A stretch of DNA of 32,079 nt from Deltaproteobacteria bacterium (GTDB taxonomy: Bacteria; Desulfobacterota; SM23-61): NCBI GenBank assembly GCA_026388915.1, contig JAPLIW010000424.1, forward strand, positions 1-32,079, in the 5' to 3' direction. Numbering within the stretch: the first letter of the stretch is position 1; the number at the start of each line of letters is the position of its first letter. The notes under the pieces were generated by a model. That model saw nothing but the letters and a program-made list of their open reading frames with translations. It had not been told where the DNA came from and made no database searches. The position numbers were made by a program, and so were the translations under genes. This document shows positions 5,829-28,048 of this stretch, in pieces.

Positions 5829-6096
5829 ACATACTCACGCCCTGCCAAGCATGAAAGGGGCCTGGCTTTTGCCCTCCTTAAGAAATTACTTTAGGGCCCT
5901 ATAACGTCTGATAATATATATTATGTAAACTAGAAGAAGAAAAAATCTGTGAGCCTGGGCCAGGACCCGGGGATTAGGCGGTACCCTTTAACCTCCCCCT
6001 CCGCAGGCCAATGAAAGTCACGTTTCCTGGGTGATCCGAAAAAAAAGACAATCTCTGCCAAATCCACTTGAACCACCATAATTTCCTTAAGGTAAA

Positions 6097-6509
6097 CTCC
6101 CGGCTCTGCCGGGGGATCTATTAGAGTTTGAAATTTCCGGGATGCTTGAGTTGTGGCCCGGGGGCAAGGAGTTTCTGGGCAAAAAGCATCGGCCGGCCTG
6201 GCCCTTTCCTTGGAGGCTTCGACCGGCTTCCGCAGGATGCGGCGGGTCGATCGGGCGTGCCAAATTCGGAATTCGGAATGTGGAATTCGGAATTTCTTGT
6301 TTTTTTTTTCATTCCGCATTCCGCACTCTACATTCCGCATTTCCATTGCCCGCCTAGCCCATGAAATGGAAGCCGCCTCATGATTTTTGCCCAGAAGCTC
6401 CTTGCCCCCGGGCCTGGCATCCGCCCGAAGGCCACCTTTCGGTGTGGCGCCCATTTCAATCCGCTTTGAGCGGTTCACTCTTTTTCATACCTCCGGCTCT
6501 GCCGGAGGT
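6097..6509. repeat. Intergenic palindrome-rich island with nested inverted repeats
   Basis: 34-nt inverted arms 6156-6189 and 6380-6413 (32/34 matches); inner iterated ATTCCGC/GCGGAAT inverted repeat 6262-6343; hairpins 6097-6115 (CCCGGC-TCT-GCCGGG core), 6461-6473 (CCGCT-TTG-AGCGG) and 6489-6509 (ACCTCCGGC-TCT-GCCGGAGGT). Confidence 0.85.
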
Positions 6510-6532
6510 CATGATTGGAGGGGAAATTGCCC

Positions 6533-22981: not shown

Positions 22982-23054
22982 AATGCGGAGTGCGGAATTC
23001 GGAATGCGGAATGAAAAAATGAAGCTTGAAATTCCGCATTCCGCATTCCGAATT
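22982..23054. repeat. Iterated GCGGAAT/ATTCCGC inverted repeat between recA and recX
   Basis: AATGCGGAGTGCGGAATTCGGAATGCGGAAT (22982-23012) and ATTCCGCATTCCGCATTCCGAATT (23031-23054); 21/24 complementary. Confidence 0.9.
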
Positions 23055-26251: not shown

Positions 26252-26989
26252 TTATGATTGTTTCTTCTTCTTGGCTTCTTTCTCCTCTTTTTCCTTTCGC
26301 TTTTTCTCTTCTTTGGCAATCTTTTCCCGGCAGGTCGGCAGGAGGGGATTGATCTTTCCCTCGAGGCCCACATCCGGGTATTTCTTTAAAATCTCCTCGA
26401 AGCGGCCCAGGGCGGCCTTGTAGTGCCCTTTCCGGTAGTAGAAATGCCCGATGTAATACTCATGGTCGGCAAGCTGGCGCCGGCAGATCTGCATCCGGGT
26501 TTTGGCGTCGGAGGTGTATTTGCTCTGGGGAAAATTTTCGACGACATAACGAAACTGTTCCAGGGCTTTCTCGGTTACGGTCTGATCCCGGTCGATCGAG
26601 AGCATTTGTTTGGAATGACACATCCCGACCTGGTAGATGGCGTAAGGGATCTCCGGATGAATGGGATGGAGTTTCTTAAAGTCTTCATACTGGACGATGG
26701 CCTCGGCGTAATTCTTGTCGAAATAGAGGGAATCGGCCAGGCGGAGTTCGGCCAGGGGGGTGTAGGTACTCAGCGGAAAGTCCTCCTTGAACTTCCGGAA
26801 AGCCTCGGCCGAGCGTTCATATTTTTTCTTTTCCAGCAGACGGAGACCCTCTTCATACGCCATCTGCGGCGTCCTCTCCGGCTCCTTTTTCTCAAAAAGA
26901 GCACACCCGCCAACCCAGAACAGCAGAGAGAGGGCGACGAAGATCACAAACGAAGAAAAGCTTGTTTCTTTACCTTTCGACCTTCTCAT
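26252..26989 (-). CDS. bamD: Outer-membrane assembly lipoprotein BamD-like
   Basis: Hydrophobic N-terminus with a Cys (WVGGC), TPR-like YEEGLRLLEKKKYERSAEAFRKFKEDFPLSTYTPLAELRLADSLY, Lys-rich tail. Confidence 0.85.
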   Translation of the reverse strand: MRRSKGKETSFSSFVIFVALSLLFWVGGCALFEKKEPERTPQMAYEEGLRLLEKKKYERSAEAFRKFKEDFPLSTYTPLAELRLADSLYFDKNYAEAIVQYEDFKKLHPIHPEIPYAIYQVGMCHSKQMLSIDRDQTVTEKALEQFRYVVENFPQSKYTSDAKTRMQICRRQLADHEYYIGHFYYRKGHYKAALGRFEEILKKYPDVGLEGKINPLLPTCREKIAKEEKKRKEKEEKEAKKKKQS

Positions 26990-27135
26990 ACCTCAATTCA
27001 TTTCCTGCGCTTTTTGAGAAAAGATCCAATTCCAATATATATTCCCCACCCTCTGCTGTCAATCGGAAGGTATTCCGCATTCCGGTAACTTTTCCATTCC
27101 GCCCTTCGTATTGGAGGTTTTTGGTACTTGCCTCA

Positions 27136-27221
27136 AGCGAAGCGCTCCTCAACTCACGCCCATGGCGTGACGCTCCTCGAGTCCCGCCTCAGGCGGGACG
27201 GTCCTCAAGACCCGAAGGGTC
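27136..27221. repeat. Array of four small hairpins separated by CGSTCCTCRAS spacers
   Basis: AGCG-aag-CGCT (27136-27146), TCACGCC-cat-GGCGTGA (27154-27170), TCCCGCC-tca-GGCGGGA (27182-27198), GACCC-gaa-GGGTC (27209-27221). Confidence 0.85.
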
Positions 27222-27244
27222 GGTCCATTTCTATTCCGCATTCT

Positions 27245-28048
27245 CTAGAACTTCATCCCTGGAAGGTTCAGGGAAGCGGTGTTGCCGCCGTCCACCGGAA
27301 GGGACTGGCCGGTTATGTAGCTGGCCTCGTCGCTGGCCAAAAACAAAATGGCACGAGCGACCTCTTCGGGTCGGCCGTAGCGCCGCAGCTCACAGCGACT
27401 GCCCAGTTTGCCAAACTTGCCCCTCTGGCGGGCCAGCTCAAAGATAGGCCGGGTCATCCCCGTTTCGATCAGGCCCGGGCAGACCGCGTTGACCCGGATA
27501 TTATAGCCGCCCAGGTCGCAGGCGGCCGTTTGAGTAAAGTTGATCAAGGCGGCCTTGCTGGCGCTGTAGGCGTTCGTCCCCGCACCGGATCGGATCCCGG
27601 CAACCGAGGCCGTGTTCACGATGGAACCGGTCTCCCTTTCCTTCATGTGCCTGGCGGCGTATTTCGTCGCATAAACCGCCCCCAGCACATTCACGGAGTA
27701 AACTTTGTGCCAGTCGTCCCCGTCCTCGTGTTCCAGATCTGCCAGCGCCCCGGTAATCCCGGCATTGTTGCAAAGAATATCGGTTTGGGAATAATTTTTT
27801 AGGGCCAGGTCGATCAATTCCTTCACTTCGGCTTCCCTGGCGACATCGGTCTTTTTGATAATTCCCTCGCCATTTTCCTTCTGCACTAGGACCATGGTTC
27901 TTTTCAACCCCTCTTCGTTGACATCGGCCAAAACCAGCCTGGCTCCTTCCCGGGCAAAAAGAACCGCTGCAGCCTGCCCGATGCCGTCGGCCGCCCCCGT
28001 AATAATGGCCACCTTCCCTTCCAGACGCCCTTTTCGCTCCCGGCCCAT
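27245..28048 (-). CDS. SDR family NAD(P)-dependent oxidoreductase
   Basis: GKVAIITGAADGIGQAAAVLFAREGARLVLADVN, CNNAGITG, AYSASKAALINFTQTAACDLG, NAVCPGLIETGM; SD GGGAGGTAG. Confidence 0.9.
   Translation of the reverse strand: MGRERKGRLEGKVAIITGAADGIGQAAAVLFAREGARLVLADVNEEGLKRTMVLVQKENGEGIIKKTDVAREAEVKELIDLALKNYSQTDILCNNAGITGALADLEHEDGDDWHKVYSVNVLGAVYATKYAARHMKERETGSIVNTASVAGIRSGAGTNAYSASKAALINFTQTAACDLGGYNIRVNAVCPGLIETGMTRPIFELARQRGKFGKLGSRCELRRYGRPEEVARAILFLASDEASYITGQSLPVDGGNTASLNLPGMKF

Follow-up and report, generated by a model that had tools for sequence, protein, structure and literature searches.

Tandem hairpin arrays with covarying stems on a fixed linker in a deltaproteobacterial genome and its relatives

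Anatomy and grammar of the array

The stretch of DNA that was analysed, hereafter the window, comprises the 32,079 nt of contig JAPLIW010000424.1 from Deltaproteobacteria bacterium (assembly GCA_026388915.1). In the gap between a BamD/YfiO-like gene and a short-chain dehydrogenase gene, downstream of the latter, lies an array of hairpin cores of 7, 19, 19 and 13 nt, which are strung together by a constant GSTCCTCRA linker (Table 1). The sequence-only reading had reported four successive hairpins with 3-nt loops and a common spacer here, and all four can be read in the sequence at 27137-27221. The first had been drawn as AGCG-AAG-CGCT; a hairpin is indeed present, but GC-GAA-GC is a better reading than the 4-bp register, because the pair closing the GNA loop covaries and the GCT that the longer register needs occurs in only 28 of 55 copies. 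The spacer is likewise common to the units, but not with the bounds first given to it: the linkers are the 9 nt of GSTCCTCRA, and the first and last bases of the earlier spacers belong to the stems as a G...C closing pair. Tandem Repeats Finder independently called 27143-27214 with a period of 28. Only 1 of 200 shuffled sequences matched or exceeded the plus strand in folding (z -2.8), whereas the folding of the minus strand was unremarkable (z -1.4).

Table 1. Features of the window and of related loci; positions without a locus label (L) are those of the window
Feature	Position or locus	Strand	Remark
Whole array: head, leader mini-hairpin, three hairpin units, tail	27130..27226	+	grammar common to ~40 arrays
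Array head GCCTCAA	27130..27136	+	follows a T-rich stretch, as most copies do
Leader unit GC-GAA-GC	27137..27143	+	d(GCGNAGC)-type mini-hairpin; DNA stability of GCGAAGC: PMC4686876
Linker GCTCCTCAA	27144..27152	+	
Hairpin unit CTCACGCC-CAT-GGCGTGAC	27153..27171	+	7/8 paired, outermost pair broken; commonest stem type of the family
Linker GCTCCTCGA	27172..27180	+	
Hairpin unit GTCCCGCC-TCA-GGCGGGAC	27181..27199	+	8/8 paired
Linker GGTCCTCAA	27200..27208	+	
Hairpin unit GACCC-GAA-GGGTC	27209..27221	+	5/5 paired
Array tail GGTCC	27222..27226	+	
Neighbour gene, BamD/YfiO-like outer membrane lipoprotein	26252..26989	-	context, outside element; Pfam PF13525 E 9e-42
Neighbour gene, short-chain dehydrogenase (SDR)	27245..28048	-	context, outside element; Pfam PF13561 E 2e-66
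~430-bp repeat	6085-6520		3-nt-loop hairpins near ends
Inverted arms of the ~430-bp repeat	6155-6197 / 6372-6414		
Heptad repeats, ATTCCGC/AATTCGG type	6263-6342 and 22982-23013		
tRNA-His-site arrays	L349 (G000:C783), L358 (G002:C28)		adjoining gene reads as tRNA-His
Recurrent GTGAAGCC-NNN-GGCGGAAC units	L273:2747, L297:3224, L305:2910, L358		
CCCTGAACC-N6-GGTTCAGGG insertions	L306:2396-2431, L279, L295, L296, L304, L305, L354, L355, L359		
CCCTGTGGAATA...TATTCCAC(A/G)GGG insertions	L300 (2700-3170), L310, L312	reverse (L300)	

Across the family, an array starts with GCCTCRA, usually after a T-rich stretch; in many copies this head is followed by the 7-nt leader hairpin GCGAAGC, 1-4 further units and a terminal GSTCC. 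Core lengths cluster at 7, 11, 13 and 18-19 nt. The unit stems measure 2 to 9 bp, the loops are mostly of 3 nt, and the units run head-to-tail on the fixed linker. The shortest unit is GC-GNA-GC, with the variants GT-GNA-AC and AT-GAA-AT, and at some loci two arrays stand head-to-head, joined by inverted GAGGCAAA...TTTTGCCTC. Tandem 33-bp units with the linker of the arrays and a non-hairpin core, GGCCTGTCATTCTTTGATCCATTC, were seen at two loci, L311 (G143:C135) and L343 (G397:C124).

Distribution of the family and covariation of its stems

The genomes compared included the source genome (G000, 4.85 Mb), two congeners (G001 and G002) and a sister genus (G004). The linker CGSTCCTCRA alone occurred 137 times in G000, compared with 82 times for the reversed control, and many of the occurrences followed one another in ~28-bp steps. 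Two linkers separated by 8-28 nt were found 39 times in G000, 24 times in G002 and once in G001, and not at all in the reversed control; the array in the window is therefore not a chance arrangement at the genome scale. A search for further copies in the source genome and its relatives, as the sequence-only reading had suggested, was thus amply answered. In five other genomes of the taxonomic family, the same pattern search returned nothing. When the 19-nt units were built into a covariance model, it detected 43 units in G000, 35 in G002 and none in G001, as well as one in G004, where the array shows the same grammar as those of G000. A survey of 395 genomes of the phylum, in which the hairpins served as the criterion for genuine arrays, found such arrays at low copy in two additional family groups; for one of these groups, 17 genomes were then searched. 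The named carriers are Deltaproteobacteria bacterium RBG_13_43_22 (L146), Desulfobacterales CSMAG_771 (L115) and Deltaproteobacteria CSMAG_1936 (L137); among the matches listed in the pattern scan of named genomes, only these three loci are genuine, and most others are chance matches in coding DNA. The family is thus nearly absent from congener G001 and sparse elsewhere in the phylum. The array loci examined contain 89 units in G000 and 51 in G002, and they are intergenic nearly throughout.

The combination of a fixed linker and compensatory stem changes, first proposed from the window alone, is borne out by 42 aligned 19-nt units, in which each of the 8 stem pairs shows changes in both arms. 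In this set, which was chosen with a pairing filter, 98.2% of the cells are paired compared with 81.5% in shuffles, 46 cells are changed on both sides compared with 6.8 in shuffles, and 14 carry single changes; none of the slid stem registers came near the true register in pairing. Swapping arms between units of G000 lowered pairing from 94.5% to 71.9%, and units gathered without a pairing filter were still nearly all paired. The excess of double (46) over single (14) changes is also what would be expected if the repeats had no function and template switching at replicating hairpins both created their palindromes and kept them perfect, the linkers being shared through descent and unit duplication, a scenario that we consider very unlikely. 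Non-Watson-Crick units of the form GTGAAGCC-NNN-GGCGGAAC recur in G000 and G002 with their G-A type stem positions conserved, a pattern that a simple palindrome-repair process would not preserve.

Evolution at orthologous sites

The flanks of 14 arrays of G000 were mapped to G002 and G001. At contig C582, a 246-bp gap in G000 corresponds to a 6-bp gap at the syntenic site of G002, from which the composite is cleanly absent; at C439, ~255 bp of head-to-head arrays in G000 are likewise cleanly absent from the syntenic G002 site. G002 is also without arrays at the sites of C250, C533, C931, C123 and C649, and in G001 there was no array at any mapped G000 site whose ortholog was inspected. Arrays are common to G000 and G002 in the gap of the window, at C415, C924, C600, C92, C66 and C427 and at a tRNA-His site, and a relic persists at C289. 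However, even shared sites differ in their units: at C415 and at the tRNA-His site, the unit content of the two genomes is entirely different. These observations reveal that the repeat is mobile or turns over fast, and such rapid turnover of unit number and content would also suit template switching. The near-absence from G001 and the clean empty sites, however, call for movement or loss and so tell against it. No clear target-site duplication was found around the composites, and the empty sites could instead be precise deletions.

At the site of the window, the last unit reads GACCC-GAA-GGGTC in G000 and GGCCC-GAA-GGGCC in G002, a compensated change. In G002, one unit of this array is broken by heptad-repeat DNA, and a 24-nt palindrome, CCCTGAACC...GGTTCAGGG, lies inside the leader. 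Over the 11 unit pairs that could be aligned by eye between the two genomes, with 76 stem pairs, 55 pairs are unchanged, 6 are compensated, 4 have become G-T and 11 are unpaired in one genome. Compensation is real, since about 0.6 compensated pairs would be expected by chance at ~15% change per arm site, although three of the 6 sit in one unit that was perhaps replaced rather than mutated. Nevertheless, uncompensated change is the commoner in orthologous arrays (15 stem pairs vs. 6), which suggests that pairing is maintained chiefly in the lineage that is being copied and less in the individual arrays once inserted. That orthologous stems often decay and are not repaired also tells against template switching. 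The proposal that structure is selected, or arises from a copying process, therefore agrees with covariation at the family level and holds less well for arrays once inserted; structure over sequence is upheld for the family and weakened at single loci. We take this to mean that pairing is enforced among the copies that go on to spread, and that inserted copies mostly decay.

Folded form, mobility and relation to known repeats

On the TCCTC strand, the loops of 75 distinct cores include the GNA triloop in 33 cases and its complementary type, TNC, in 4. GNA loops occupy 21 of the 28 cores with stems of up to 6 bp, compared with 12 of 47 with longer stems (Fisher p 4e-5, with related units treated as independent). 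A strand-symmetric process such as template switching does not predict GNA loops that lie on one strand and are concentrated in short stems. Among 80 units of 7 nt taken without a pairing filter, 55 fit NN-GNA-N'N', against a background of 0.5%; all four bases occur at the N of the loop, and both the loop-closing pair (C-G or T-A) and the outer pair (G-C or A-T) covary. As RNA, a 2-bp stem closed by a GNA loop should be weak or unstable. As DNA, in contrast, d(GCGNAGC) forms an extraordinarily stable mini-hairpin, with a Tm of 78 C for GCGAAGC (PMC4686876), a motif credited through that source to Hirao and Yoshizawa. The 7-nt leader belongs to exactly this sequence class; the difference is that d(GCGNAGC) is known as a chemical and structural motif, whereas here it is a genomic unit that is repeated and has a covarying stem. 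The stability of the DNA form, together with the expected weakness of the RNA, makes single-stranded DNA the likely folded form, as inferred from loop identity. Nearest-neighbour energies clearly favour neither strand, and this comparison is uninformative because both strands of the GCGAAGC leader receive the same value.

Several features could instead be taken to indicate a structured RNA element, such as a terminator, an mRNA stabiliser or a sponge: the covariation is strong; on the minus strand, AGGA lies between the hairpins, as it does in CsrA-binding sRNAs; the plus strand carries CUCCUC resembling an anti-Shine-Dalgarno sequence; and a T-rich stretch follows many arrays. The plus-strand stems also contain 10 G-T pairs vs. 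3 A-C mismatches, which is suggestive only (p 0.09). We nonetheless regard an RNA role as decidedly unlikely. First, the strands of the upstream and downstream genes relative to the array (++10, --9, -+7, +-3, with genes defined by a simple ORF rule) show a random orientation, divergent gaps included, which is not what a terminator or a cis-acting RNA would show. Second, Rfam gave no match at the gathering threshold in the region of the window array or in 16 array loci (80 kb). Third, head-to-head pairs would yield opposite RNAs, the 2-bp units should not be stable in this form, and units decay at orthologous sites. An intrinsic terminator in particular was rejected, as 5-6 nt separate the hairpin from the T stretch and gene orientation is random. 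The Pfam matches among 10 neighbours of other arrays were to ABC transporter, AMP-ligase, T2SS and similar proteins, and the genes matched next to arrays are unrelated. Array orientation did not correlate with local GC skew, a weak test in which no lagging-strand bias was seen.

As short palindromic hairpin repeats of high copy number in intergenic DNA, the arrays belong to the REP/BIME superfamily in its general sense. They resemble GTAG-REPs and BIMEs in being intergenic palindromes of 20-40 bp with 2-3 nt loops and one unpaired side motif, in their complementary-stem subfamilies and tandem and inverted groupings, in a patchy, lineage-specific amplification, and in serving as a target for other insertions (PMC3733652, PMC2817692, PMC1525189). 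Di Nocera and colleagues described REPs tagged GTAG or CGTC with stems mostly of 6-9 bp, short loops, complementary stem subfamilies, and dimers and groups (PMC3733652). Here, however, TCCTCRA or GSTCC (reverse TYGAGGASC) stands by the stem in aligned copies instead of a GTAG/GYRG-type tag, the runs are strictly head-to-tail and have a GCGNAGC leader and a fixed 9-nt linker, stems go down to 2 bp with GNA loops, and no RAYT gene is flanked by the repeats. The CGTC-REPs are similar in being palindromic repeats without a dedicated transposase (PMC3733652); they differ in that their stems measure 8-9 bp and begin with A-T pairs at positions 1-2, their loops span 4-5 nt and they occur mostly as head-head dimers. 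The present units close with a G-C pair, have mainly 3-nt loops, run in direct tandem and carry no CGTC tag. We therefore place the family within the REP/BIME kind and with neither the GTAG- nor the CGTC-REPs, since it bears neither tag and does not flank RAYT genes. CRISPR arrays share the short tandem alternation of a repeat with a variable part, but the logic here is inverse, the linker being constant and the variable parts self-complementary palindromes; no cas gene was seen beside the window array or among those of 10 examined neighbours of other arrays that had Pfam matches. CRISPR was excluded on this anatomy and the lack of cas, and integron attC sites were excluded on anatomy as well. 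Our literature search, whose coverage was incomplete, found no description of the GSTCCTCRA linker or of GNA mini-hairpin arrays, and no record of such palindromic repeats in Desulfobacterota. The suggestion of an under-described class is fair for Desulfobacterota but not for the general kind, as REP/BIME repeats with complementary stem variation are known elsewhere (PMC3733652).

If the units were true REP elements, they would be moved by a host RAYT (TnpA-REP) and would carry an unusual tag, GAGGASCG, before the hairpin on the reverse strand instead of GTAG. REP_Tyr_transposase-like (RAYT-like) proteins are present in G000 and G002 (NF047646 E 1e-18 to 2e-20, just below the curated cut-off), and a hairpin with an unpaired tag, tandem and inverted grouping and complementary stem subfamilies is REP anatomy (PMC3733652). 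However, Y1 transposases (Y1_Tnp) occur in all 19 genomes examined, array-free ones included, and among ~40 Y1 loci scanned, only two have arrays within 1.5 kb; both are on one G002 contig, where the arrays lie ~0.6 kb from RAYT-type genes that they do not flank. With the GTAG and CGTC tags both absent, this explanation is unlikely, and a link to RAYT is unsupported by the ~40 loci of the 19 genomes.

We give about even chances to the reading that the array in the window is a single copy of a REP/BIME-like repeat that is dispersed and non-autonomous and that works as a hairpin of single-stranded DNA. The TCCTC strand would fold as single-stranded DNA, for example when exposed in replication, and a putative nuclease/transposase or recombination activity would recognise the hairpins and the linker and copy or move units and composites. 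Stems could then change freely by compensation while pairing holds in copies that are still moving, and copies would decay after insertion. A more tentative possibility is that the arrays represent a separate class of single-strand DNA mobile repeat, apart from RAYT/REP, in which a one-strand run of GNA mini-hairpins rather than a fixed sequence is recognised. Stems would then drift freely under pairing on a linker that does not change, and arrays would gain, lose and exchange units internally.

The REP/BIME-like reading would extend palindromic extragenic repeats to a group of uncultured Desulfobacterota and offer an unusually clear example of a structure that persists as its sequence changes. 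The GNA bias suggests that what is selected is folding as single-stranded DNA, something that sequence alone seldom reveals. The family also serves as a caution that strong stem covariation need not imply a functional RNA. Should the hairpins be recognised by an enzyme through their shape, that enzyme could be turned into a tool for reading structure instead of sequence.

Other elements were observed in and around the arrays. The 24-nt palindrome, CCCTGAACC-N6-GGTTCAGGG in full, sits in leader units flanked by copies of CGAAG, and two orthologous sites have a plain leader in G000 and a palindrome-filled leader in G002. A second palindrome, CCCTGTGGAATA...TATTCCAC(A/G)GGG, has entered leader units in two distinct families within the phylum; in G215 (L314), the leader is empty. 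Such insertions into the leader recall the IS insertions reported in REPs (PMC1525189). The hairpins at 6097-6509, which had been credited with the same architecture as the array, prove to belong to a different repeat of ~430 bp, which has 43-nt inverted arms and lacks GSTCCTCRA linkers; of its 78 matches in G000, ~10 are long or nearly full-length copies (74-89% identity), and fragments occur in two congeners. Heptad repeats, of the ATTCCGC/AATTCGG type in the window and of the ATAACGA and GGCAACC types elsewhere, often lie in inverted arms within intergenic gaps, where they flank or interrupt hairpin arrays.
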